Positions 4,562 to 26,300 of a stretch of 60,000 nucleotides of DNA are shown here, in pieces. Both the position numbers and the translations under genes were made by a program. Within the stretch, counting starts at the first letter, position 1; each line of letters opens with the position of its first letter. The notes under the pieces were generated by a model that was not told where the DNA came from, ran no database searches, and saw only the letters and a list, made by a program, of their open reading frames with translations. The DNA is from Bolinopsis microptera (taxonomy: Eukaryota; Ctenophora; Tentaculata; Lobata; Bolinopsidae): contig NC_087074.1 in assembly GCF_026151205.1 (NCBI RefSeq), positions 14,161,167 to 14,221,166 on the forward strand, read 5' to 3'.

Positions 4562-5316
4562 CTATCCGTATTTCTCTCTGAACTCAACATGAAACTTAGC
4601 CAGTTTCTCCAGGAAAACTACCAGCTGTTCCATTGGAGGAAGGATCGTCATCCTGAAGTGGAAGGTACCAGGGTACTGCCAGAATCCACTGCCAGGAACC
4701 ACGCAGATACCCGTGTTTTCTAGAAGCTCCAAACAGTAGAAGAAGTCTGGAGTTACGCCCTTGCTTTCCGCGAGCTCGATAGCTTTCTTGGGGATTTCGA
4801 TGCGAGGGAATGCGTACATGGCGCCCTGGAGATTATTGCAGACAATGCCAGGAATCTCGTTCAGTTTCTCGTGAACCAGGATGGACCGCTCTTTGAGGGA
4901 CGCCAGAACTCCTTCGGTTTCAGATTTGTACAGTTCAGCGGCGTCACCAGAGGGAGCCTTAACCATACAGCTGATAGCAACTTGACCGGAAGTAGAGGAA
5001 CACAGAGAAGCAGAGATAAGCTTCTGCAGCATCACTTTCACTTCCGGGTCGAAGTTGGTCATCTCACAATAGCCTCCCCTCAGTCCACACTCTCCCATAA
5101 AACCCTTGGAGACCGAATGGAAAGATGCCAGCGGTTGAGAATCGTACTCAGGTCCCAGAGACCGCAGGACCTTCTTGAAGGACACAAACTGATCGTCGTC
5201 ACCCCAGATGTTGGTCTGGTAAACTTCGTCAGCCATTATCAGGAGGTCATGTTTGTGGGCGAACTTGATGATGTCTACTATGTTCTCTGGAGGAATGTTC
5301 TGGCCCGTGGGGTTGC
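4562..5316 (-). CDS. GPT: Alanine aminotransferase exon 7 (catalytic C-terminal half)
   Basis: This exon encodes the last 250 residues, entering after a TTTCAG acceptor at 5317-5318 and ending at TAG 4562-4564. It contains GNPTG, ADEVYQ, the PLP lysine in SVSKGFMGE, and the conserved ends [12 protein letters not shown] and [10 protein letters not shown]. The latter carries the arginine that binds the substrate carboxylate in this fold family. Confidence 0.93.
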
Positions 5317-8300
5317 CTGAAATTATTAAGCCGTCAGGTATTTTAGAAAATTGTTAGATTTCGGAGATAAAATATTTGATTCTGAAATAAAAGTAATGAA
5401 AATGTTATGAGAGCAATTAGGCCGGGATTCAAGAACGATCACTGATTACGACGAGAGTACTAAAACCATCCATATCTCCATGCATTGCATTGGTTGGAAC
5501 TTTTAGTACATTACATTTCTAAATTCGTTTCTGATAAGAATTGTTGACAGATGGTCACCATGTTATCCAGCTGCCATTCAGCAGAACTTGGCAACAGTAA
5601 TGATGGATGATGATTAATCACTCTACACTCGACTGTCACGTGACTTTTTAAACACGTTTTCTTGGTGGTCCTGAATTACTATTCGAAATCCTAGCCCCCT
5701 AATCTGATCCCAACCCTAACCCTAACCCAATCTCTAACAAAAGCATATGCTGAAACCCTAACCCTAACGAGAAATTAGACCTACTTCCTTAAATGGTCAT
5801 ATCACGTGATCGACTGTTGGGGGCTCTTTTAGAAAAATATCGAAGATCGACTGTAGAGTGATTTATAGCACGCTTGACGCTCGAGTAATGATATTCATAT
5901 ACAAATATAGCTAAAATCATGTATCAAAAGTTGTCTAAAATTTTTACAAATCTCTGATTCATCTTCTTTCCGCAACAACAGAATCGTTCGATCCACGTAT
6001 GCAGTGGTTAAATTTAAGTCACGATTGTTAAATTAATCACGATCGTTATTACGAATTATACACGTACGTACGTAACGTACGTGCGCGCGCGCGTTTCGAA
6101 CGTGACTACGGTTTGACACGCGCGGTGAGCCGCGCACTTTTGTTGGATTTGAACTATACGAAAATCAAATTATGAATCGAGCGCTACTAGGGCGCTCACT
6201 TAGCGCTTAGTTACCAGCCAACTTTACTTGTTATGATTTGTACCTCTTAGTGTGACCTGGATCAGAATATTTTCTTCGACTTCAGTTTTCAAAAGTGAGA
6301 GTGCTTGGATCGAATATAGATATATCTCTGTAAGAGTGTATAAGATGTTACAACTTACACACGTGCGCCGCACGTCGTGCGGTAATCGGTATCATGTCAC
6401 CAAGTGACTTGTCTATTGTCGTTACCAATGGCCACACTATTCACCTAATACCGTAATCTGCTTGACAGCTCGATCGAATTAAATGATTGCATTTGTTGTT
6501 ATAAAGAACGAAATTAAGCACATTCATATCGATTATCACATTAGTGAGAACATGAGTGGAAGCAGGACAGAAATGTTCGCAGGGTTAACTGTAACACGAC
6601 AGTTAAGACCACTTGGTTCCGATGGCTTCCGCAGGAGATGTTGGTTGTAAGTTATTATACATCGAACTTGTTTGTTTCCTCTTACCTACATTTTTGCTGA
6701 CTCGACCTGCAATCTGCACGAGTTGTAAGTGAAATTATATAAATCTTCTAATTGTAGGTATATTAAAGTATATTAAAATGTAGGATTTTTTCCGATTTTG
6801 ACCCGGGGATATACTTTAATATACTTTAATATGGTTGGCCCCCCCCCCCCAAATTTTACTCTTCAGGCACATGAGAGCCAGGTTCCCTACTCTCGAAGCG
6901 GTTCCCGAAATAAAACGAGCTGTGGCACGTTTCTGCCATATCGAGGGTAAATAAGTTTTTATCACTTGCCATTGCCTCACTTCTTATTAGGAACTAGAGA
7001 AGTTCTCGCAAAACATCATTATATATGAAACATTTGACACGGAGTTGTAGAGTGAGCTATGTGCCTCGCCAGGGCTAAAGTAGTGAATGACCTTGCTGTA
7101 CGGCAAGTTAAACAAGGATCTGAAACTACTAGGTTCCGTACAGGCTCAACTCTACACCCGTGCCAATATGTTCATATGAAAGCCTCTTGATTTATACTAA
7201 TAATTCTTTAATTCTTTTGCTCGCTTTCTTTTCACCCTTCCCCCTCTCTCGATATTTCATCAATTATCACATCCCAACATTTGAAATGTTTTCAAGTAAA
7301 GTTTAGCCTCAAGAACTTAACCTTCACGGACATTATAGTAACAAAATGCTTTGCCCGTGTGTTCTCTGTCAACAAGAGAATGAATTGTCCGACCGTACGG
7401 TAAAGGAACATCTGCTCTCATTCGGTCACATGAAGAAAACACTGTTGGCTGATTTTATCAAACATACCGATCCGGGAGACAAACTTTTTCACCACGTGCT
7501 GAGGTAATTTACTAATAAGACACAGGCTGTCTGCATCTTTGACTATAAAACATCATCAGTCGTAACTTGAGTAGGATCAGAGTGGGTTGAGTGTAGCACT
7601 TTAAAAGGATATTTAAGAGCTGAACTTGTGAATATTAAACATCTGAAGGTGATCATCCGTGTAATCCTGCAGGTCGTTACTAGATAAGTGCTTTGAAGAG
7701 GGAGCAACCTTTGAGGTGAAGGGTTCACAGGGAAAACCCCTCCTCATCACCACTATCATTAAGCCGCACAAGGAAATAAAAACTCCTGCTGACAGTGTTA
7801 AAAGGAAGCACACTCATGTCTTCAAGGATATAGTAGAGAGCCAGGTATCCTGAATAACGTTATCGGTAATAAGTTAAACTGTATATCACTTCCGCAGTTT
7901 GCCATCATAGCCATACTGAAACTGAACGAATCCCTACAGGCAATTTAGTTCAATCAACATGAATATTTGCAGGCTGAGTCAAGCTGTTCAAAATCTAATG
8001 ACTCTGATATCGAATCAGTGACCAAACGGATCCGAACTGCGGAGTTAACATCACTCTCTAAAGAGCAGCGGAGTATGTACAGGCGTTGGCTGGCGTTGAC
8101 TGTAAGAAACGAATTGATGCTCTTCATGTTGCTATGTTCAAAGCTGAATGTAAGTTGTTAAGAACGATACAAATTGTCATTATCATTACAACTTAGCGGG
8201 TGGAAAAGTTAATTCTTAGTGTGCAATAGATTTCATCGCAATAAATTAAATGCTGACTCAATTTTTAGCTAACACGGGGACAGCCAATGTACGAAACAAC

Positions 8301-11300
8301 CTGCGGCCACTGCTAAAAAAATATGATATAAAAATGGAATCAGAGAAGGAAATCAAGTCAATGGAAGAATTATACACCGTGAGTGCTCAGTTGAACTCAA
8401 AACCAATTATATATCATTTTGGTGTCATGGCGTACTAGCATATAGCATAGCACAACCCAGATTTTGAAATATAGAATATATTGTACATCAAAAATTAACA
8501 TCATTCATGTTTTAAGGTGAACTATATGAGTGCAATGGTTTCTCTTTCCCATAAAGCTGCAGCACATGATAAAAATGAAACTAAAAGTGGTGAGCTGTTA
8601 GCAAGACGTACCCCAGTAGCCTACTGTGATGGACAGGAACTGCTAACCAAAACACTTATAACCTTGAAGAATACCGGTATTTCAAATTTCTAGAGATTAT
8701 AGAGCTGTTTACAAAAAATTAATTTGATTTATATAGGTCAAGGTGGGCAGTTCTTTTAGCGGTTTTTATCACATAGTTCATTAACAGCCAGCTGAATTCT
8801 ATATATTCCAGGCCAGTTAGATGTGGGAACTGACAAAACTATACATGTTAAGCTGTTTGTAGACGCAGACACGAGCTCCACTAAAGTGGCAGTCAATGTG
8901 CTAAACCAGCCTTCGTGTAACAGCTCGTATGCCCACCCAATGCTGGTGTACACCGAAGCTCCGGACCATCGCAGGAACATGGAGGTCATATTTAAGGTAT
9001 TTCTTCATGAAATCTAGACTTCAACTTGAGCTTATTTGTATTAACAGCTTACACTTTAAAAACTGGACAGGCATGAGACAGATAACATTACAGGTGGTTA
9101 ACCGGGACCTACCACAGCTCAAGAACTTTGTCTTCTGTGGAGCACATGTGAAGATGATTCTCTGTGCAGACACAAAGGCACTGTGGGCTATGCTGGGTAT
9201 GGGCAGCAATGGGACGTTCCCCTGTCCACTGTGCGAGGTACATAAAGACCTGATGCAAGTACCCAGAAGCCAGAGAGCTCTCTGCAAGCCCCGAACTTTT
9301 GCGGGAATTATGCAGAACTTTGATGCTAATATGAGGTACTTATAAACTTATAATACCAGTCATTAACTCGCTGATTGCAGCTCCTTCATTTCACAAAGTA
9401 CAAACATTTATCTCGATGTATATTGTATACCATGTATGTATTTCGATAGATGTATACCATTTCTGTAAACTGTTAGTATCGAGTTTTTCCACATCAGAAT
9501 GACTCAGTGTAACCCGAGATCCCAAGCCCAGTTTATGAATGTTGCTTCACGACCCATCACAGACTGTTTCGGGGAGGATTCTGATTATCTCATAAACTGG
9601 GTCGCTGTTCCGTTCTTTGCACATAGTAAGTGATCGAAGCTCACAGTTTTTTATTCGAACACCGCTCATGCTGTTCCTGATATGTGGCAAATAGAACTAG
9701 GTACTAGAATTATTGACTGATTGTCATGACTCTTGATACTTCCTTTAGAACATCAAAGTCGGGACTTTTCTGTGGACAGAGTACGGTAAACTGTGCGAGG
9801 AGATAGACTTTGTACTCGCTTGCAATGTGGCAGACGGGTTTCTTCCCAACAGCTACAGCAGTACGACAGACTTTGGAGCCATGATTCTGCGCATCGAACA
9901 AGGTAATGTAGATTCATCGATGAATGTATCACTTCATTATTGAAAAATTGGAGGCTTTGCAAACTGATATATAATGAGTTGAAGAAAATAAGTGTGGCAC
10001 TGTACATTTTAGGTAACCGTGTGGCCTCGAAGTGCAACAGTGGGCCCCTTTCCTCGAAGTATGAGCAATATTTGAGGGGCATCAATGTCACTCCTGAGGC
10101 ATACCATGGTGTGTCCCTGACCGGCGTGAGAGCAGGATATTTGGTTAAAGCCAATCACACTCAATTTTGGACAGACCACTTCTATAAAAACGAGTAAGTT
10201 CTGTGAGATCAGTGCGATTTAACTCATGTTACTAATGGTTGTCGTTTATAGTGAAATAACTACCACTTTTTACTTGTGATTGAAGGCTAAAATTCTGTAT
10301 TGATAACGAGCTTCTGTGACTGACCGATTCTGTGTTGACAGGAAGATAAGACCACAGGACAAGCTGCACTTTCAGCAACGGCTCCTTGCACTGGATCGCA
10401 TTAAGTCCTCGTATAGAGATCTCTTAGTTCTCGGTGGCAAAAGTGGGAAAGTGAAGAGTCCCCGTGAGATCGAAACTCTTGTCAAGGCCAGGGACCTCTT
10501 CTTGCAGAGTACCGAAAGTTTGGTCAGTCCACATCGGTGAAGGTATTGTTGTTATCTCTTATAGCTTTACCTGTTGTCTCCAACCCCTAAATAGCCTGGA
10601 AGAAAGTTATTTTCATGACATATTTATAAGAAACTCCGGCCCAACCGAACTCTTAAAATTGCAACATCATTTCAACACCACCTCCACCAGATACATCTCC
10701 TTGAAGACCACTTTTTGGAGCAGATACAGCTCTGGGGGATGTTTTCTGGATCTTTCAATGAGCAAGGTGGTGAGAGTACTCACTCCCTTTTTAAGAATCA
10801 CGAACACATGACAAGTAAGAAATAACTTGGGCTTTTAGAATTAATTGAGTTTGAGATCAAATTTTGATTTCCACACGTTGAATAGTAGTGTGTAAGGGGT
10901 CGTTCATATATTACTTAACCATCGAAGGTGAGGGGGAGTACATAATATGTGGACGACCACCACTTTAATACAGAAATGTAAGCAACATAAATTTTCAGAC
11001 CATGTTCGTAATGACGAAGACCGAGTTGTGAAAAAGTGCGAGCTAGCAACACGGAAATACCTGTTGAAAGTGAAATCCAAGCTGTGTGACTGAAATGGGT
11101 CAATCATGATGGATTTAGTGTTTGGGACAATCTGCTATATGCCTAAAATTGAAAGATTGTTAATTTGGTGATGCTTCACCCTCTGTTCATATTTTCTACT
11201 TGATCAATAATGATATTCGCCACATATTATGTAAAACGCCGCTTATGTTTTGCCATTAAAATTTTTTCGTTATAGTAGTGACTGCGACTGAAACCGCGCA

Positions 11301-14300
11301 TCACGCAAGTTTTTGTCGCCGCGCGAGGGTGATTCAATTTTGTCCACTTCGCCATAATTCTCAGAGGATGTAATTTGACGAGTGCGGGACAATTTTGAGC
11401 GCAAGGAATCACTTGAATCGAAGATAACGATTGAGCTGACAATTTCTCCGGTAAAAATTAGACCTTAGATAACTGAATTGGGATGACATCGGAAATAACT
11501 CTGATGCGAGCAGGAATACACTATGTCATACTCATAGCAGTAATACTTAGACGTGAATATTAATATCCGATGGATCAAATTAGTGTATATGTTATCATTA
11601 TTATATATATAAAGTGTGCCTCACTGGGGCACCCTTAAGTAACAGTTCCAGCTCGATAGGCCTCGTAACCGGGATGGATAGAGACAAACGAAATACATCA
11701 TCTCGTCACAAGCAATCAGATCTAAGTTAAACGATAAGGCCAGGACATACTATGAGCATTGAATTAACTGTCAAAATGGTAACCTGAGCCCTAGAGGTGA
11801 TCACATGCTATAAGCCTAACGGAAAAGTATTCTAAAAATATAAATCTAATCGTTAAGTTAAACACATTTGAAAGCGGCTGTCAGATAATATAAACGGTTC
11901 GGGATGATGGCTGTCGAGGTTCGGGCATGACGCGCCCGGCCGCACAATAAGCGGTGACTAGGGAAGTCACAACAAAAAGTCCCCTCTCAGTCTAATCTGA
12001 GCTCTCGATATTTTGGAAGAATTCTGGATTCTAGCTATATACTAGAAATAGGTAAATTAGTCAACGAACATGAGATGAATCATATATTAACTTAAAGATG
12101 AAAACCCGCTAATCAACGTTGACCAAAATTAAATTATGTGGGCTTACAATTGAATCATATAGAGTAACTATTTGATCATTTGACGTAGCCATTTTGTCAA
12201 CGCAGCATTTTGTCAATTTGTCAACTCTAAATATTCGACTGCTGTTAATCTTTTAACTTTAATTATAAACTTATGTTACCACTGAAAATCTGAAATGGCT
12301 CCAGTAGATCTGTAGATGTGGCAGCTAGGTTCTCGTTATATACTGCGATAATCGCAAATTGAGGCGACAATCGCACGATAATCGCATAATGAGGCGATTA
12401 TCGCACAAGGGGGGGCGATAATCGCAAAATGAGGCGATAACCGCGCGATAATCGCAAAATGAGGCGATAATCGCACAAGGAGTCGATTATCGCGCGATAA
12501 TCGCGAGGGAGTGCGATTATCGCTGCAAAAATAAAATCTGCGAAATGGCCAACATTTTCCACTGTGCTACAAGATACAGTAGATGAATCCATAAATTTGG
12601 AACATGGGTACATCGCAGTATTGGCCGTATTTGAGTGCTCGGGAGGCTCAGTTCGGTTTTCTAAGATGGATATAGCCGTAAGCTATGCCTAGGAGCCATC
12701 AAAAGTCGCATAAAATTACCCATGGAATGACCAGAAATGAACGAAAATGAACATTCTTCTCAAAGTGCTCCGAATGGTTTAAAATGGGTCGGAAAGTGTT
12801 AACATTGGACCTAGGACCACTCAAACCAAGTTTGGGAATCACTGCATGTCTAGAACCGATGTTACCTATGTTCCAAAATGTTCCAATTTTGGGACAATAA
12901 TCCTCCTGAGAATCCAGATTTTTGGAACATGGGCACATCGAAGTATTGGCTGTATTTAAGTGCTGGGAAGCCTCAATTCGGTTTTCTAAGATGGATATAG
13001 GTAAAGACTAGGCCTAAGAGCCATCAAAACTCAAATAACATTACCCAGGTTCATGGAATGAACGAAAATGAACAAAAATGAATATTGTCCTAAAAATGCT
13101 CAGAACGGTTTAAAATTGGTCGGAAAGTGTTTATATTGGTCCTGCGACCACTCAAACCAAGTTTGGGAATCACTGCATGTCTAGAACCGATGTGACCTAT
13201 GTTCCAAAATGTTCCAATTTTGGGACAATAATCCTCCTGAGAATCCAGATTTTTGGAACATGGGCACATCGAAGTATTGCCTGTATTTAAGTGCTGGGAA
13301 GCCTCAATTCGGTTTTCTAAGATGGATATAGGTAAAAACTAGGCCTAAGAGCCATCAAAACTCAAATAACATTACCCAGGTTCATGGAATGAACGAAAAT
13401 GAACAAAAATGAATATTGTCCTTAAAATGCTCAGAACGGTTTAAAATTGGTCGGAAAGTGTTTATATTGGTCATAGGACCACCCAAAGCAAGTTTGGGAA
13501 TCACTGCATGTCTAGAACCGATGTTACCAATGTTCCAAAATGTTCCAATTTTGGGACAATAATCCTCCTGAGAATCCAGATTTTTGGAACATGGGCACAT
13601 CGAAGTATTGGCTGTATTTAAGTGCTGGGAAGCATTTATATCAAAATATTGGAGGATTATTAAAACAAAAATATTTGCCCAATAAAATAATTTCTGTTTA
13701 ATTGTACATAATTCTGAATGCAACTTTAAGACCCTGTTGGACGACAATATTGACTCTTTGCCACCATTTTTTAACCATTCTGAGTGCTTGGGTAATAAAA
13801 CCGTTCTGAGCATTTTTAGGACAATATTCATTTTTTGTTCATTTTCGTTCATTCCATGAACCTGGGTAATGTTATTTGAGTTTTGATGGCTCTTAGGCTT
13901 AGTTTTTACCTATATCCATCTTAGAAAACCGAATTGAGGCTTCCCAGCACTTAAATACAGCCAATACTTCGATGTGCCCATGTTCCAAAAATCTGGATTC
14001 TCAGGAGGATTATTGTCCCAAAATTGGAACATTTTGGAACATTGGTAACATCGGTTCTAGACATGCAGTGATTCCCAAACTTGCTTTGGGTGGTCCTAGG
14101 ACCAATATAAACACTTTCCGACCAATTTTAAACCGTTCTGAGCATTTTAAGGACAATATTCATTTTTGTTCATTTTCGTTCATTCCATGAACCTGGGTAA
14201 TGTTATTTGAGTTTTGATGGCTCTTAGGCCTAGTTTTTACCTATATCCATCTTAGAAAACCAAATTGACGCTTCCCAGCACTTAAATACAGCCAATACTT

Positions 14301-17300
14301 CGATGTGCCCATGTTCCAAAAATCTGGATTCTCAGGAGGATTATTGTCCCAAAATTGGAACATTTTGGAACATAGGTAACATCGGTTCTAGACATGCAGT
14401 GATTCCCAAACTTGGTTTGAGTGGTCATAGGACCAATATAAACACTTTCCGACCAATTTTAAACCGTTCTGAGCATTTTTAGGACAATATTCATTTTTGT
14501 TCATTTTCGTTCATTACATGAACCTGTGTAATGTTATTTGAGTTTTGATGGCTCTTAGGCCTAGTTTTTACCTATATCCATCCTAGAAAACCGAATTGAG
14601 GCTTCCCAGCACTTAAATACAGCCAATACTTCGATGTGCCCATGTTCCAAAAATCTGGATTCTCAGGAGGATTATTGTCCCAAAATTGGAACATTTTGGA
14701 ACATAGGTCACATCGGTTCTAGACATGCAGTGATTCCCAAACTTGGTTTGAGTGGTCATAGGACCAATATAAACACTTTTCGACCAATTTTAAACCGTTC
14801 TGAGCATTTTTAGGACAATATTCATTTTTGTTCATTTTCGTTCATTCCATGAACCTGGGTAATGTTATTTGAGTCTTGATGGCTCTTAGGCCTAGTCTTT
14901 ACCTATATCCATCTTAGAAAACCGAATTGAGGCTTCCCAGCACTTAAATACAGCCAATACTTCGATGTGCCCATGTTCCAAAAATCTGGATTCTCAGGAG
15001 GATTATTGTCCCAAAATTGGAACATTTTGGAACATAGGTAACATCGGTTCTAGACATGCAGTGATTCCCAAACTTGGTTTGAGTGGTCATAGGACCAATA
15101 TAAACACTTTCCGACCAATTTTAAACCGTTCTGAGCATTTTTAGGACAATATTCATTTTTGTTCATTTTCGTTCATTCCATGAACCTGGGTAATGTTATT
15201 TGAGTTTTGATGGCTCTTAGGCCTAGTTTTTACCTATATATCCATCATTTACAATTATTTTTGGCACTATTTAGAGCTTATTAGGGCAAATAAATGCATG
15301 GGACACTTTTGGGACAATTTTGGGACATGTTCCAAAAATGTTCCAAAAATGTTCCAAAAATCTGGATTCATCAACTCACAAGATAAACATTTACGGTTCG
15401 GCGTGCGCGCGTACCGGCTTTATCATGGCCACATGTGGGTAGAGTTTCATATCCTCGATTAGCAAACAAGTTTAATGTATCACTTATCAGCACATCAAGT
15501 TATAGAAGACAGCATAACGGAAGGGTTTTCTTGCAGAAAACAGATACCAATTTACCATACACTGATTCTGCAGTCCTGGAAGTCTTATCGCTGACATATT
15601 TTGTATTTGTGATAAGGGACTTCAAAGAATACCCGATAATAATGTAACCACATTTACCACAAAGGCAGAAAAAGGCGGATGTTTTGGGTTTTCTGTGCAT
15701 ACTTTTACACTGTTATTGTTCACAACCAGAGGAATACAATACATGGTTGAATGAAATGTTGTTGTAGCTTACGTATTTAAGTCACATCATTACACAATAC
15801 ACATTACACACCATTGTAATCAAGGGACTTGAATATGCAGCATAATTACTGTATATCATTCACATATCATGAAATATTTGGTGGCTGCTGTTAGTCTATA
15901 TTAACTCAGAATATTCTAGATCTGATGATGTAACCATAACAGTTAACACTTACCCGGATTAATGACACAGATAGCTTTAGGGACACATCTCGACTTTGCC
16001 TCATCGTACGCTCGTTCTAGTTCCTCTGGGTTCAGTGTCCAGTTGTTATGCTCGTCCATGTAATAACTTATCTGTAAAGAGGTCAATATTACGAAGAAGG
16101 AAATTATGATAACTTATTTAGCCCGTTTCTCTTTTAAAGGACACAAAATAGACAGCTTGATCGTAATTTAATTGGAGATAGCTTCCCTTACAACTGAACA
16201 AATTGTTATAGCATTATATTAATGTTCAACCCTAGACCGGATGTAGAATAATTTCTTAAAAAGGAAAGCAAATAAGACCCTTTAGTTTAGAATTGAGTGT
16301 AGATTCCCTGTAACTGTCAGGATTTACATATTCGATTATTATATTATTTACTTATCTATATATAGATTTGAATAATATGTAGGGATTGTTAGTGTAGAAT
16401 TACTCCAAGTAAAGAGCAGTTAAGTTTAATTTCAGCTTATTTAGAGCATTAACTAAGGAGAGATACTCAGAAACGCTACTTCGATTTTTTAAAATAATTA
16501 ATATGCAGTAATGAAATTCATTATTTTCGAATTTACATAAATAAAAATATCAATCACAATAGTAAAAACCACGTCACAGAATGTGATAGAAGATAATAGA
16601 ATGAAAAAGAATAGAATGCAAAAAATTAATACAGCTTGTTAGTAAAATTTGTCGGCAAATAGAGCAAAAATAATGTTCTTCTAATTCTAAAATCATCACG
16701 CAAAGGAAAATAAGTAACGATTAAGAAATTTGATGGTCCCGGTATCTGACAGCTGTTATCGGCGGAAAAGACAAACCATGAAATTAAAACTACATTGTGT
16801 ACGCCTCAGTATATTTAAACAATTTAACCTACAATTTAACCTACTTCCGCTATCTTCTATTAACTTATAAAGCTTTCTCCACCTGAATAGGACGAGGTTG
16901 ATTATCTCTTTCTTCAGCTGCGTCATTACCACCTCCTCCCAGAGAAGAGAAGAGTTTTGATGAAAGTGACAGTATCTTGGAGCGGAGAAATCTTCGGAAA
17001 CTTGGAACTGTCAGACTATAAATATAAAAGTTCGACATCACGTTCAGTAGAGTCAGATAAGAGGCGAGTCTGACGAGTCCTGGAGATTGTTCCTTCTTGA
17101 ACATTCCAGCGACCTTGGACAAGTTGAAGAGTAAAGATGAGAGACAATAAACAGCAGCTGTCAGCACTACAGTTAAAATGCCTTGCCACCTTACAGAACC
17201 ATTCCCCCTTCGCGAAATAGCCCTTGCTTTGAACAAAAGTCTGAGGGTTAGGACCGAGGTTAGGATCACAACTGCCATTGTTACGATGTAGAAAGATCCA

Positions 17301-20300
17301 GCCACCAAGGAGTATGAAGCTATTCCATCACCGGGATTACTCACATTGTACTTTATATCGTAGGTCGAGTAGTCGAATTCAAGGTCATCTGAGTATGCGA
17401 GCAAAGTTCCCAATGAAACAGAAATATTCATTAACCAAAATGCTCCACAAAATAAATGAGCTCGCTTAGCTGTCCAACTTCTCGTCTTTAAAGGATATTT
17501 GACTAACAAATATTTGCTGAACGTCAGAAAACAGACAAGTAGATTGCTAATAGGGTAGGATACCAATGTTATGAATATTTGGCCTTTAGCTACAACATCA
17601 CTCAAGATCCAGTCTTCGGCAACAATAGAAATTACGGTAGGGAAAGCCCACGCAAGGGTTAGAGCTAAATCGCAAACTGCTATTTGTTGAATCAAGGCTA
17701 CAATGAATTTGTTGAGTTTGAAAGCGTCATATCTGAATGAAGATATCAAAATTATGATATCTCCAAATAATGAAGACAGAATAACTATCATCAGATAGAC
17801 TATCCACAGCCATTTTTCTGTTCCATTTTGCATTCCGTAAAGAGTGGCGTTGTTTCGTGGTATCATAGTTTTATAAAGCAGTGGCCAGTGGACCACAGGA
17901 CCAGTGCTGTTGAGTGATAAAAAACACAGAAAGACGAACAAGTAGAAACTAAACTGGTCTAACCTCAGGTAAATTGAAGAAACTTGGAAGATACGTAAAA
18001 CTACTCAAGGAAAGTTTTGCCCCCATTTATATTTGAAATACAGAATAGAATCTACAGGATTGTTATAGTAAGTAGGAATGTGCTACTACGTACAATACTC
18101 ATACTTCATTATAAACATAGGCTGGTAAGCTGATACATACTTTACTAGAAATGAGTAGCGAGAAGCAAGTGAAGTGCCTAGAAACAAGCTACAGCAGGGA
18201 GAGGATTTCTGACGAATACAATGACACATTTCGAGCAAATGTCAGAAGAATATTCTAGATTTACTGAATGAAAAGTTTAACCAACAAGAAAATGAATTTC
18301 CTAATCTAGTGTTAGCACATAATATCATCAGTAAACAACTGACCAGTTCAGCGTTAAACTCAGCAGTACAAGCGGAGTAGAGAGGGTACTGAGGTACAGG
18401 GATCATGAAACCGGGTCTGGACTCGTTATCCATCGTCAAACACAGCTTCATTATGTTCTGAGGACGGGTTTTGTCATAAATCATATGGTATTTAGAGGTT
18501 GCTAGTTTTACTGTATCTTGGTTTTTAGTTTTAATTTTTACCGAGAGTAGGCTTAATAACAGGATATAAAGGTATAGGCTTAATAACAGGATTTAAAGGT
18601 ATAGGCTTAATGACAGGATTTAAAGATTGGACTGCACCCTCACAATATTTCCTCACAACTAATCTTCCTACAGCACTGACCTTGATACAGCTGCTAGCTC
18701 CAGTTCCAACAAAGATATCATCAGGACTGGCTGGGTAACCGTCCCTTTCTGAGATGTACTCTGCCACGTGGTTCCTTACTGTTACTATCCCTGGTGAGTC
18801 TGTGTAGGATCCTGAGGGGGTGTTGTCAATTGTCAAACGCAAGGAAATATTATTTAACGTCCAGGTGGGTTCACGTTTTGTACAATGTGCTACCTTTTAA
18901 AAGTAGGAAGATGGAAATTCTAATTATAAATATTCTTTTATAACTATAGAATATGTTACAGTAGGTAACTACATTTATTCAGGACGTAACAGAAGGAATT
19001 AATTTAATGCAGTTTGAGGAGTCCTCACTCTCCTCACGTCCGAAAATGGCGTTTCTCTTGTCGCTAACATAATTTATGAACCTCAGACGTATTATATAAT
19101 ATTTTTTTTTTTTTTTTTTTTTTTTTAAGAGAGGCTGGGCATAGAAAGCCCACTAGAGGATAGCATTAAGATGCTTTGCCTACCTCTGGGATGAGGGGGG
19201 GTTTATTGGAGACAACAGTGTGAATTGTGGAGGACGGTGGTGGTAATGATCTGAATGGGAATACCGCGCTTTGGTACCAGATGAGTTTATAGATCAGTTA
19301 GGCAAGGCTGCAAATGTGATGTGTTAATGCGCTAAGTTACGCCAGTCTGATCCAGTTCTTCTGGTACTATTAAGCGTTTGGTGCGGTTTGTGAAGTTGAC
19401 GATTGTGGTAATGTGGTGGTTGTCGAATATGTCGTTGACCGAGAGGTAGTAGTCCCGAAAGTATTGACCTCTTAGTTGGGCAATAGCTGGGCACTGTCCA
19501 AGAAAGTGTGAGACAGTTTCCTCTCCGTCACCGCACATAGGACAAGCACTGGTGCTAGATTTGCGGATGGTGTGAAGGTGTTTGTTTAAGCCACAGTGGC
19601 CCGTGATTAGGTGGACTGCGGTTCTATAGTCTTGTCTATTGTTGATGAGTGACGTGTTTATATTATTGATTATTTTGGTGTGCTTTTGGCCAAGTGTTAG
19701 TTTGGTGTGTCTAGGACCATCCGTTAACCAGATATCCTGATTCAGTCTGTGGACTTTGTTGTTGATTTGTCGTTTGATGTAAGATTGAGGGATTGGGCAT
19801 TTCAAAACGTGTTCGCTGGTCGTGCCAAGCTTGGCCAGCTCATCCGCTTTTTCATTTCCCCACAACCCAATATGGGCTGCGATCCATCGGATCTCTAGAG
19901 TGTTGTTCGATCCGAGTGCGTTAAGGGTGTCATAACAGTCTCTAGTAGTTCTGCTCCTCGTTGAAAGCGAGGAAATAGCTTGTATGGAGGAGAGACTATC
20001 AGACCATATAATGATGTGTGAATTGGTGTAGGATGAGAGATACTTGCAGGCTTCAATGATTGCAGTAAGCTCCGTCTGGTAGACAGTGCAATAATCAGGG
20101 AGCTTGAATGATCTCTCTTCCAGGATGGTGTTGTTGTTGTCAGTCGTGATGATGTACCCAGCCCCACTTCCGGAGTCTGATAGAGACCCGTCTGTGTAGC
20201 AGGTGATCGTTTCACTGGTAATGTTGTCGATGGTGTGTTGGAGTGCGGTTCTGTATTCAGTGTTGTTAGTTCCAGGAGTGGTGACGGTGAAGTGCCGTCC

Positions 20301-23300
20301 CAGCATCATGGTTGGTGCTGTGAGGTCTCTTGTGGCTCTAGGTGGTATGTTGAGATCCTCCATGAATTGTTTGTTGATTGTGGTGTGGTTTTTGATAGTT
20401 CCCTTCCTGTGGGCGATAGTTTCAAGAGTGAGGCTGCCGTAGGCTTGAAGCCTTGCTGCTCCCTTCGCTGCTTCGCCCCTCAGGAATAGTATGGTGTCTG
20501 GGGTGTCAGTAAGGTGATTCAATGCGAGGAAGGGTGTACTTGGCATGGCACCAGACATCATTCTCAGTGCCAATGCCTGCACACGTTTGAGCTTCCTCGC
20601 ATTGTAGTCCGTGTCAATTGCCCTGATCCATATACTACAGCAGTAGGACAGAATGGGTCGAATGACCGCTGTGAACATCCATATACAAGTTTTAGGGCTC
20701 ATACCCCATGTGGGGCCGACAGCTCTTCGACATTGCATGAGGGATGCCGTGGCTTTTTTGGTGATGTTGATGATATGTTCATTGTAATTGAGTTTGCTGT
20801 CTAATGTCACACCTAGGAATTTAGCCGACTTCGAGAGACCTATAATGTTGTTGCCAACTTTTATTGGTCTCAAAGTCCACTTAGTATTCCAGGTAAACAT
20901 TACTATCTGAGTCTTGAGTGCGCTGATAGATAGATCCTTGGTTTGGCACCATTTTTCTATCGTATTGATGGTTTTGCATGTGCGGTTCCAGATGATGTCC
21001 AGGTCATTTCCTTCTGCTAGTGAAGCCAGGTCATCTGCGAAGGCTTGCAGGTAACCCGGTATGTCCTTCGCAGTAAAGGAGAGGAGATCGTCGACTACCA
21101 GGTTCCATAGAAAAGGAGAAAGGATGCCTCCCTGTGGGCAGCCTCTCCTGATCTGTACCCTTCTCGACTTATCCTTATGACTTAGATTGATAAAGCGATT
21201 AGTGACCATGTTGATGATCCATTGCGCTGTAGCTAGGTCCACTTTCGTGGCCCTGACTGCATCAGAAATAGCTTTGAACGAGACGTTGTCGAAGGCGCCC
21301 TCTATGTCAAGAAAAACTCCTAGGACATATCCCTTCTTAGCTATTCTGCGCTCAATGGTGTGGGTAACTTTATGAAGAGCCGCTTCTGTTGAGCAGCCCT
21401 TCCTAAAGCCGAATTGACGTTTGTTTATGTCATTTGCTATGTTGAGGTCGTGTTGCATGTGCCACAGAATCACTTTCTCCTGTAATTTTAGCATCACAGG
21501 TGAGAGAGTGATTGTGCGAAAAGACTTAGCCTTGTTGTAGTCGGTTTTGCCGGGTTTGGGGAGGAAGATTCCGATGGAATCCCTCCACAAAGTAGGGATG
21601 TGTTGTGTTTTGTGATTATTTGTCATGATGTTTTGTGTTATATCTTTGATATGGTTCCAGGCTTTCTGGAAGATGATCGGTTTCAGGGTGTCCGGTCCTG
21701 CAGCCTTTAAAGGATCGAAAGACATGAGGGCCTTCTCGATTCTTTCAGGGCTGTAGATTTTGTCTAGTAAGTCTGAGGAGATGGGTATTGGGCCGAGGGG
21801 CGGGACTGGCGGATCAGTAACACTCTCCCTGAAGTGGGTTTGAGTCATGACCTCCAGTGTCTCCTCTGCGTTTTTGGTGAGTTCTCCGTTGGGTTTATAA
21901 ATGGCTTCTAGTTTGTTGTTGGTGTCAGTACAGGTTTTCAGAATCTTGCTCATCCTTCCAGATTCTTTGACCGATTCTGTGTCTCTGCAAAAGTTCCGCC
22001 ACGCATTGCGCTGGGAGTTTGACAGGATCTTGTTGTATTGCTTGTTGCTTTCTCGGAGAGCAAGCCACGAAGCGTCAGTTTTCTTTCTGCGGGCTGTAAT
22101 GAGTTTGCGTCTTATTCCCCTCTGAGCTTCCTCGACTTCTCGAGTTAGCCAGGGAGGTTTGCGGACCGCACTCGAGATGTAAGTTATAGGACATGCCTCC
22201 TCGAAGGCTGTCCTGAGAGCAGAGTTTAAGGTGTTGACCTTTAGGTCGATTTCTTGGGGTGTGATAATGCCGTTACTGTGGAGGTCGTTGTTGTTCTGTA
22301 GAATCTCGTCAAATTTCGCCCAGTCAGTGTGCTTGACTAGTCGTATTTGACGTGGTTCTTTTTTGGGGCCGGATGTTATATCAAACATAATATATCTGTG
22401 GTCTGAGTTAGAGTAAAGATCGCTAACGTGCCAGTTGCTGATCAGCTCCGCCCCCTTTTGGTTAGTTATGGTGAGATCAATAATGGAATTATGACCGCGT
22501 GAGTTGAGAAATGTGGGTGTTGACCCTCTGTTGGAACAGGCGAGCCCTAGTGACGAGAGGAAATCTAGGAGATCCTCCCCCCTACTATTGCACATCCTAT
22601 TACCCCAGAGAGTGTGTTGGGAGTTGGTGTCAGACCCTATGATAAGCGGTATGTTGTTATCAATAGCATACTTGGCTAAAGGTGTTGTCTCGTGGGATGG
22701 AGCAGGGCCATTAATATCCATGTACGAAGCTGCCAGAATTACTTCTGTTGAGCTTAGTTGGATCTTAATGGCTACCTGGTCCGGGGTTGTAAATTGCAGC
22801 AGTTCCCAGCTTTTGACGGCTAGGTTTTTGTGTATTACTACGGCGGCACGTGGCCTAATGTCCCCGGCCTTATAATAATACTCAGTTAGGTCCTTGCTTA
22901 TAGTTGGGATATGGTTCTTGTTGTTTGTGTATGGTTCCGTAGCAAGTATAATAGGATTTTTCCTGCCGTGAGTGTTCACTAGCAGGGTTTTCCAGGCGTT
23001 GTACTTGCGTTTGAGGTTGATTTGGGTAACAGAGTAATGTTCAAAATGAGTTTTACCTGTTTTGGCTGTAGTTTTTGAGGTGGTCTTCTTGCCCCTTCCA
23101 CCTCTGCGTGTCTTATGTCGTTGTATGTTATTGTTGTTTGTGGGGGTGGTATCGGTTGGAATAGTATTGGTGGTGGGGGTGGTGGGGTTTGCATTAGTGT
23201 TGGTGTTGGAGACGTGGAGTTCAGCATCAGCAGTTTCCCTCACCGGACCAGTACTAGGACCTTTTGGTTCGGGCACTGTGTCTGGGGGCCGGCCTGAGGC

Positions 23301-26300
23301 GTACAGCAGCGACCAGCGTTTCTAGTAGGAAACTATGTTCCTTGAGGAAGGTCTCTCCCTCAGGTGAGACCTCCACCCAGATCCGCTGCCGCTGCCTGGA
23401 CCCAACCGACAAACCCCCGCCTTCCTGTTGCTGAACTTCCACAGTCTCCCAGGTATTGGACACGTGCCTCAGAGAGCTGCATGGTAGACCATGCGCTACG
23501 TTCCTCAGCATTAGTCCCCGTACTATAGTATGAGGGTCAAGACCAACATCACTAGGTCCCTTCCCCGATAACTGATTTGGCACGTAAAAGGCGTACCGGC
23601 TCCAAACGTCCTGGGAGGTGACTGTCCAGCCTGCCTTTTCAAGGCACGCTGTTACCACCTCCGCAGACGCCAGGTCCGCCAGCTCTAATCGCGATCCACC
23701 AGGTATCGGTACTAACGACGTAATTACCAGAGGCTGTGGGACGAGGAAAAGTTGGCGGGCGATGAGATCGCTCGCATCACTACCCTCCCCTTCCTTGACA
23801 GCAAGAAGGGTGATCACAGGATCACCCTTCCTGTATATCTCTTCGGGGGTGGGAAGCAATTCCTCCTCATCCTCCCCGTCCTCAAACTCTGGCTGCCGGT
23901 CTTGTTGTTGTGTCTGTTGTTGTTGTTGTTGTTGTGGTTGTTGTTGTTGTTGGTGTTGTAGTTGGGGGTTGTCCGAGCTGACAGGAGCACCGTTCTTGCT
24001 CTTGTTCTTACCCCTGCCCCTGCCGCCCCTGGACTCTCGACTTATCCTTATGACTTAGATTGATAAAGCGATTAGTGACCATGTTGATGATCCATTGCGC
24101 TGTAGCTAGGTCCACTTTCGTGGCCCTGACTGCATCAGAAATAGCTTTGAACGAGACGTTGTCGAAGGCGCCCTCTATGTCAAGAAAAACTCCTAGGACA
24201 TATCCCTTCTTAGCTATTCTGCGCTCAATGGTGTGGGTAACTTTATGAAGAGCCGCTTCTGTTGAGCAGCCCTTCCTAAAGCCGAATTGACGTTTGTTTA
24301 TGTCATTTGCTATGTTGAGGTCGTGTTGCATGTGCCACAGAATCACTTTCTCCTGTAATTTTAGCATCACAGGTGAGAGAGTGATTGTGCGAAAAGACTT
24401 AGCCTTGTTGTAGTCGGTTTTGCCGGGTTTGGGGAGGAAGATTCCGATGGAATCCCTCCACAAAGTAGGGATGTGTTGTGTTTTGTGATTATTTGTCATG
24501 ATGTTTTGTGTTATATCTTTGATATGGTTCCAGGCTTTCTGGAAGATGATCGGTTTCAGGGTGTCCGGTCCTGCAGCCTTTAAAGGATCGAAAGACATGA
24601 GGGCCTTCTCGATTCTTTCAGGGCTGTAGATTTTGTCTAGTAAGTCTGTGGAGATGGGTATTGGGCCGAGGGGCGGGACTGGCGGATCAGTAACACTCTC
24701 CCTGAAGTGGGTTTGAGTCATGACCTCCAGTGTCTCCTCTGCGTTTTTGGTGAGTTCTCCGTTGGGTTTATAAATGGCTTCTAGTTTGTTGTTGGTGTCA
24801 GTACAGGTTTTCAGAATCTTGCTCATCCTTCCAGATTCTTTGACCGATTCTGTGTCTCTGCAAAAGTTCCGCCACGCATTGCGCTGGGAGTTTGACAGGA
24901 TCTTGTTGTATTGCTTGTTGCTTTCTCGGAGAGCAAGCCACGAAGCGTCAGTTTTCTTTCTGCGGGCTGTAATGAGTTTGCTTCTTATTCCCCTCTGAGC
25001 TTCCTCGACTTCTCGAGTTAGCCAGGGAGGTTTGCGGACCGCACTCGAGATGTAAGTTATAGGACATGCCTCCTCGAAGGCTGTCCTGAGAGCAGAGTTT
25101 AAGGTGTTGACCTTTAGGTCGATTTCTTGGGGTGTGATAATGCCGTTACTGTGGAGGTCGTTGTTGTTCTGTAGAATCTCGTCAAATTTCGCCCAGTCAG
25201 TGTGCTTGACTAGTCGTATTTGACGTGGTTCTTTTTTGGGGCCGGATGTTATATCAAACATAATATATCTGTGGTCTGAGTTAGAGTAAAGATCGCTAAC
25301 GTGCCAGTTGCTGATCAGCTCCGCCCCCTTTTGGTTAGTTATGGTGAGATCAATAATGGAATTATGACCGCGTGAGTTGAGAAATGTGGGTGTTGACCCT
25401 CTGTTGGAACAGGCGAGCCCTAGTGACGAGAGGAAATCTAGGAGATCCTCCCCCCTACTATTGCACATCCTATTACCCCAGAGAGTGTGTTGGGAGTTGG
25501 TGTCAGACCCTATGATAAGCGGTATGTTGTTATCAATAGCATACTTGGCTAAAGGTGTTGTCTCGTGGGATGGAGCAGGGCCATTAATATCCATGTACGA
25601 AGCTGCCAGAATTACTTCTGTTGAGCTTAGTTGGATCTTAATGGCTACCTGGTCCGGGGTTGTAAATTGCAGCAGTTCCCAGCTTTTGACGGTTAGGTTT
25701 TTGTGTATTACTACGGCGGCACGTGGCCTAATGTCCCCGGCCTTATAATAATACTCAGTTAGGTCCTTGCTTATAGTTGGGATATGGTTCTTGTTGTTTG
25801 TGTATGGTTCCGTAGCAAGTATAATAGGATTTTTCCTGCCGTGAGTGTTCACTAGCAGGGTTTTCCAGGCGTTGTACTTGCGTTTGAGGTTGATTTGGGT
25901 AACAGAGTAATGTTCAAAATGAGTTTTACCTGTTTTGGCTGTAGTTTTTGAGGTGGTCTTCTTGCCCCTTCCACCTCTGCGTGTCTTATGTCGTTGTATG
26001 TTATTGTTGTTTGTGGGGGTGGTATCGGTTGGAATAGTATTGGTGGTGGGGGTGGTGGGGTTTGCATTAGTGTTGGTGTTGGAGACGTGGAGTTCAGCAT
26101 CAGCAGTTTCCCTCACCGGACCAGTACTAGGACCTTTTGGTTCGGGCACTGTGTCTGGGGGCCGGCCTGAGGCGTACAGCAGCGACCAGCGTTTCTAGTA
26201 GGAAACTATGTTCCTTGAGGAAGGTCTCTCCCTCAGGTGAGACCTCCACCCAGATCCGCTGCCGCTGCCTGGACCCAACCGACAAACCCCCGCCTTCCTG

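Follow-up and report, generated by a model that had tools for sequence, protein, structure and literature searches.

We analysed a 60,000-nucleotide stretch of the genome of the ctenophore Bolinopsis microptera (hereafter the window; contig NC_087074.1 of assembly GCF_026151205.1, positions 14,161,167 to 14,221,166 of the forward strand), in which an initial annotation had noticed an intron-rich, transposase-like gene nested antisense in an aminotransferase gene. In our reading, to which we assign a probability of about 0.86, this gene encodes the transposase of a cut-and-paste transposon that carries two genes and belongs to the Chapaev/CACTA/Transib (CMCT) group, and the window holds a damaged copy of that transposon (6111–12566, plus strand) lying antisense in an aminotransferase intron. 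The unexpected part is that the element, which would belong to a lineage outside Transib and RAG, has unequal ends whose inner sequence blocks are offset by 10 bp. That the offset reflects a rule for the pairing of ends is a more tentative proposition, which we hold at somewhat less than even odds.

The mobility of the element is evident from its copies. The whole of the window’s own assembly (264.65 Mb in 232 contigs) was searched, and the copy counts given here are lower bounds. With one exon as the query, 17 matches were found; because nine of these (the window included) were 99–100% identical, the gene is repeated in the genome, with nine copies on seven contigs. Dispersed copies with terminal repeats, which the initial annotation had named as the sign of an ordinary transposon rather than a host gene, are thus present. 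The 200-base 3′ end occurred 12 times at 99–100% identity on eight contigs, again counting the window, and the 330-base 5′ end occurred 12 times at 100% and once at 73%. We fetched 10-kb stretches around eight near-identical copies and four relatives. Two of the eight copies, L012 (8,695 bases) and L013 (8,694 bases), are full-length, and the other six lack inner pieces. The near-identity of the copies indicates mobility in the recent past. Two copies, L013 and L022 (C6:17679872-17692221), stand head to tail, seven bases apart; the two carry separate 4-bp duplications (CAGA and ATAC), so that insertion of one copy three bases away from the other’s end seems to have produced this arrangement. 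Viral contigs yielded 53 pattern matches, among which no relative was confirmed.

The copies share a 3′ boundary that aligns to window position 12566, and the 5′ and 3′ ends of the near-identical copies both start with CACAGTGGAAAAT, forming 13-bp inverted termini. The initial annotation had reported no visible terminal inverted repeats: the 3′ end lies outside the span it described, and the window copy lacks the 5′ end, which takes up 734 bases in L012. The surviving 3′ (long) terminus (12532–12566, minus strand), read from 12566, starts with CACAGTGGAAAAT and has a second block, GATTTTA, at base 29. Among the other copies, target duplications are the norm. All six of the copies L009–L014 are flanked by 4-bp duplications (GTCT, GACA, TATA, CTTT, ATAC and TGCT), as are the relatives L018 and L019, whereas L016 has none at its flanks. 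L025 and L026 have 4-bp duplications as well, but the scan that set the bounds of both required one. Of the 12 inverted pairs seen first, 10 had the duplication (L016 and L029 did not); in the flanks of 18 further pairs it was present in 17, and none of the 18 matched at 3 or at 5–8 bp. When all pairs are pooled, the count is 27 of 30, the exceptions being L016, L029 and one further pair, or 25 of 28 if L025 and L026 are left aside. Subterminal repeats, rare in the middle of the element, were present in all five elements examined, with L025 and L026 having motifs of their own; in the window, 3′ repeats of the GCGATAATCGC type are concentrated near the end, at 12345–12523.

The placement of the transposase rests on its motifs. 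We aligned the L012 protein with pieces of its relatives L018 (678 residues, 76% identity where aligned), L019 (365 residues, 65%), L025 (289 residues, 42%) and L026 (294 residues, 39%). Six residues (C375, C378, H635, H640, E657 and E661) are invariant in all five members, and D287/D289 is kept in all four that cover the site. The second Asp by position is D357; L012, L018, L019, L020, L026 and L027 all have it. The layout is D357-x17-C375-x2-C378 ... H635-x4-H640-x20-E661. The CMCT group, which comprises EnSpm, Mirage, Chapaev, Transib and their kin and whose motifs are also found in RAG1, is marked by the motifs C(2)C and H(3-4)H, both placed after the second Asp and ahead of the last Glu, by 5′-CA...TG-3′ termini and by 2–5 bp duplications (PMC12730594). 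Here, CxxC and HxxxxH follow D357 and precede E661, and the termini read CAC...GTG in five families. We place the element in the CMCT group because of this combination: a first Asp, D-x17-CxxC, HxxxxH-x20-E, CAC...GTG ends and 4-bp duplications. Within the group it appears to be nearest to Chapaev, with CACTA-like traits; membership of either is not claimed.

Several observations weigh against our reading. L025 lacks the second Asp, and the catalytic Glu (E657 or E661) was chosen by analogy. The best Pfam match of the transposase, DUF1280 (PF06918), scored 22.7 bits (E 8e-5) against a cut-off of 25, and the Transpos_assoc match scored 22.3 bits against a cut-off of 27.7; both are thus sub-threshold. 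DUF1280 matched two of the five aligned members at E up to 1, and a search of the genome with its profile gave one match, elsewhere, and none at these copies. Among solved structures there was no meaningful match for the transposase, and none to RAG1 or Transib. Comparison by hhalign with two RAG1-like reading frames of the same genome (L034 and L035, described below) was not significant (E 0.14, probability 0.4%). For L015, finally, no 5′ end was found.

The element carries two genes. Fifteen GT-AG exons can be drawn over 6552–11093 on the plus strand, with phases that fit except at three places; this bears out the roughly fourteen exons, and the order of their motifs, in the initial annotation. 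Its treatment of them as a single gene did not hold, for the full-length copies join the first two exons to further exons of another gene, ORF1, and not to the transposase. ORF1 exon 1 (6552–6646, starting at ATG 6552) and exon 2 (6867–6946), both on the plus strand, are all that the window copy retains of it. In full-length copies, ORF1 has 251 residues in seven exons (joined by eye in L012), with exons 3–7 held in the inner 1,516 bases that the window copy is missing. Pieces of ORF1 are conserved in L018, L019 and L020.

The transposase occupies the other 13 exons, all on the plus strand. Exon 1 as modelled (7314–7503) encodes a CPCxxC...H finger that is conserved in L018, L020 and L026 and that matches PF13963 (Transpos_assoc) with an E of 9e-6, below the cut-off; translation probably starts at ATG 7346. 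Exons 2 (7673–7844), 3 (7973–8149), 4 (8269–8378) and 5 (8517–8676, in protein 92% identical to L018) lead to exon 6 (8812–8996), which holds the first Asp (FVDAD, D287/D289). Exon 7 (9094–9335) contains the second Asp (CADTKALW, D357) and CPLC (C375, C378). After exons 8 (9498–9625), 9 (9749–9902), 10 (10013–10193) and 11 (10342–10542), exon 12 (10691–10814) supplies HLLEDH (H635, H640) and EQGGES (E657, E661), and exon 13 (10999–11093) the stop codon. The transposases of L012 and L013 are identical and open across these 13 exons, with 705 codons as modelled or 695 from the first ATG. Such open copies, with their ends, fit the second option that the initial annotation had offered, namely an unusual intron-rich transposon.

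These exons are not the product of chance, because L018 keeps all 12 transposase introns at the same positions and phases, all of them GT-AG, and because synonymous differences between the two genes are saturated while nonsynonymous ones are few (pS 0.766, pN 0.138, over 678 codons). No dN/dS ratio is given, since the synonymous changes are saturated. Judged from this comparison, the transposase exons are evidently under purifying selection.

The two ends of the element differ in their internal spacing. In five related families, whose transposases are 39–76% identical over aligned exons, an inner block common to both ends begins at base 19 of the 5′ end and at base 29 of the 3′ end. The block was recognized by shared words: GATTTTATT in L010, GATTTTA in L018, GATTTTAATC in L025 and GATTTAAGTTAGGG... 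in L026; in L019 the words differ, and a shift of 10 was best (18 of 30 bases). The blocks begin with GATTT or a near form and then diverge. Past CAC, the outer bases of L010, L025 and L026 are not the same, with the distances of 19 and 29 unchanged.

We then counted ends genome-wide with patterns for three terminal types, the first of which covers the families of L010, L018 and L019; gaps of 1–25 or 1–30 bases were permitted. The patterns matched 53, 23 and 16 ends, 92 in all, and their reversed controls 1, 0 and 0. Of these ends, 47 have the block starting at base 19 and 43 at base 29, with one each at 32 and 35; spacing is thus standard in 90 of 92. Every one of the 30 inverted pairs spanning less than 20 kb is made up of one short and one long end, in the combination 19/29 for 29 of them and 19/32 for one. 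They include a 664-base derivative (C7:1444786-1445449) that resembles a miniature inverted-repeat transposable element, with one short end, one long end and a 4-bp duplication. A blind scan for ends, which required CAC...GTG and a 4-bp duplication, gave one candidate each for L025 and L026, and ten reversed sequences produced a single weak candidate. Ends of known type were found by pattern in L029 and L030. At both ends of L026 the inner block holds GGAAAAACC, which is like the nonamer of the recombination signal sequence (RSS) at seven of nine bases; the likeness is probably due to chance.

Not all of the evidence on the ends favours a 10-base offset with a functional role. The end patterns were derived from ends already read, and the blind scan of L027–L033 returned no end pair in any of the seven. 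For L019 the scan ranked another end pair first. At shifts of −5 and −3, L018 has longer shared words; L010 has one of equal length at a shift of 5. These rival words are partly subterminal repeats. The long ends also share a motif near ATTTYGC. Because the families share descent, the GATTT starts and this long-end motif, the offset must be counted as one inherited feature, not as five independent ones. For the same reason of shared descent, the spacing counts and pairs are compatible with a pairing rule without proving it.

Indeed, we give nearly an even chance to the view that the offset sets no spacing rule, that the 3′ end carries an extra, inherited binding motif of the ATTTYGC kind, and that any pair of ends could work. 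The long ends do share a conserved stretch (GCCATTTCGCA, GCGATTTTTGC, GCCGATTTTGCA), and the two long ends with three or six extra bases indicate that the exact length of this end can vary. It is harder, on that view, to account for spacing that is otherwise exact despite changes among terminal types in the outer bases beyond CAC and in much of the intervening sequence, or for the union of short with long in every inverted pair, down to the 664-base derivative. The alternative that we put forward, with the reserve due to a proposal somewhat below an even chance, is a one-turn/two-turn pairing rule, akin to the 12/23 logic, in a CMC-type lineage outside Transib and RAG, kept across families whose transposases are only about 40% identical over aligned exons.

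Under such a pairing rule, transposition might proceed as follows. A spliced DDE transposase, predicted from its motifs to have a core of the RNase H type with a zinc site formed by CxxC and HxxxxH, would bind CAC and the inner block at both ends. It would pair one short with one long end, cut, and then re-insert the element with a 4-base stagger. With an offset of one turn, the ends would no longer be interchangeable, which is also the effect of the 12/23 rule in V(D)J recombination. The ORF1 product probably binds the subterminal repeats, by analogy with TnpA in Spm (PMC2613891).

The window copy, delimited by alignment to the eight fetched near-identical copies, is damaged in two ways. Relative to L012 it lacks 734 bases at the 5′ end and an internal stretch of 1,516 bases at 7019/7020; downstream of 7019 the two are 99.8% identical over 5,551 columns, and both aligned stretches together show three substitutions and nine gap openings. 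In addition, the reading frame is broken at three places. The initial annotation had considered micro-introns there. Instead, single-base length differences were found near 8070 (exon 3), 9616 (exon 8) and 10504 (exon 11), each confined to the window copy: all of the other fetched copies that cover these sites (seven, seven and six, respectively) differ from it. The preponderance of length changes over substitutions would suit errors of assembly, in which case the window copy would differ from a full copy mainly by the two missing stretches. We regard this as possible but rather doubtful, given that the aminotransferase frame near the element is open over 263 codons and that other copies in the same assembly are without these breaks.

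We also considered whether the element might be a Transib or RAG-like element proper. Two reading frames of the same genome serve as a reference. The first, in L034 (1468–3183; C2:19700416-19701534, minus strand), is RAG1-like and open over 571 amino acids, and it matches the RAG1 profile PF12940 with 49 bits; the second, in L035 (1372–3766; C3), is likewise RAG1-like and matches PF12940. A joint L034/L035 profile matches solved RAG1 chains and 6pqn (a DNA-mediated transposase, which we take to be Transib) at E 1e-20. The motif order in L034 is D256-x14-C271-x2-C274 ... H500-x4-H505-x21-E527, and the order and rough spacing in L034 and L035 are those of the present transposase, so that the initial annotation’s comparison of the Asp...Asp-CxxC...Glu outline with RAG1 and Transib was apt. 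In the only hhalign alignment with these frames, HxxxxH and Glu were in register. The termini of the L010 and L018 families also begin with CACAGTG, which equals the consensus RSS heptamer. The exact heptamer was dropped as a common trait, as other families have CACGGTG, CACGGCT or CACAGGT.

Nonetheless, identity with Transib or RAG is very unlikely. These differing heptamers speak against it, and PF12940 matched neither the L012 transposase nor the other aligned members, although the same kind of scan (hmmscan) finds L034. The duplications point the same way: those of RAG, RAG-like elements and Transib are 5 bp (PMC7204232), whereas here none of the 18 further pairs matched at 5 bp and 17 matched at 4. 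What the element has in common with Transib and RAG is the CAC start, a DDE layout with CxxC and HxxxxH, and unequal ends. The likeness to RAG1 lies in the layout of the motifs; it is not proven by sequence score.

The remaining suggestion of the initial annotation, a transposase gene captured and domesticated by the host, draws on the many introns and the purifying selection on the exons but is exceedingly improbable, and we reject it at this locus. Around a dozen almost identical copies are scattered over the genome and have termini and target duplications; six of the eight that were fetched have internal deletions, and the window copy is damaged. The gene has been mobile and is not confined to one fixed locus.

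The surroundings of the window copy agree with the nested, antisense position first described. The open frame at 4562–5353 on the minus strand encodes the C-terminal half (residues 242–497) of the host gene, an alanine aminotransferase (3ihj_A, E 1.6e-86). An upstream aminotransferase exon with PQYPLYSA, presumably a motif of alanine aminotransferases, lies near 18394, also on the minus strand. Because these host exons flank it on both sides, the transposon lies within an aminotransferase intron. Arrays of a 331-base tandem repeat occupy 12585–15239, starting 19 bases past the 3′ end of the transposon. Telomere-like CCCTAA runs stand within a repeat at 5604–5813, and a repeat upstream of the L011 copy is 83% alike. 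Farther along, the region 20001–28000 is GC-richer and, up to 26000, T-skewed; units recur there 2,873 bases apart (23128/26001 and 23902/26775), which suggests a tandem duplication. No RNA families were found within the window. A search for STING gave no match anywhere, and nothing is concluded from that.

How does the element compare with its presumed relatives? Chapaev has CAC/GTG ends and 3–4 bp duplications as hallmarks (PMC4079192), and DUF1280 has been assigned to Chapaev and clustered with RAG1 (PMC3985635). The present element shares the CAC...GTG termini and 4-bp duplications, and its best Pfam match is DUF1280. It differs in that this match is below the cut-off, in its Transpos_assoc-like N-terminal finger and in having two genes. 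No description of unequal Chapaev ends was found in the literature searched, most subscription papers being outside it, which is no proof of novelty.

With the CACTA/EnSpm elements (Spm, Tgmt), the likenesses are 13-bp termini, family-specific subterminal repeats, two functions, many exons and an element in a host intron (PMC2613891), together with a Transpos_assoc-like finger. The ends differ: CACAG or CACGG with 4-bp duplications here, CACTA with 3-bp duplications there. Some animal relatives of CACTA have 2-bp duplications (PMC1636069). The transposase did not match Transposase_21 (EnSpm/CACTA) at E up to 10 with filters on. A high intron number alone is not new, and its combination with two genes matters less here, being already present in plant CACTA elements; a soybean CACTA element has a gene of 24 exons, and tnpA of maize Spm has 11 (PMC2613891).

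The comparison of most consequence is with V(D)J recombination. How this process came to require one 12-spacer and one 23-spacer signal is a standing question. The two spacers differ by about one helical turn. In the present element 11 and 21 bases separate the block from the first seven bases, so the offset is 10, not 11; it amounts to one helical turn and resembles the 12/23 signals. According to PMC8355894, asymmetry of the 12/23 type was known beside V(D)J recombination only in some Transibs as of 2021, and the ends of ProtoRAG are 27/31. A recently active animal transposon of a neighbouring lineage would provide an independent, testable system for the question: it begins with the same three to seven bases, has a catalytic layout like that of RAG1, and shows the one-turn spacing of its ends in 90 of 92 instances. 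If the proposed rule is correct, unequal ends would be old, or would have arisen repeatedly, in the wider group behind RAG, rather than being a late gain with RAG2.

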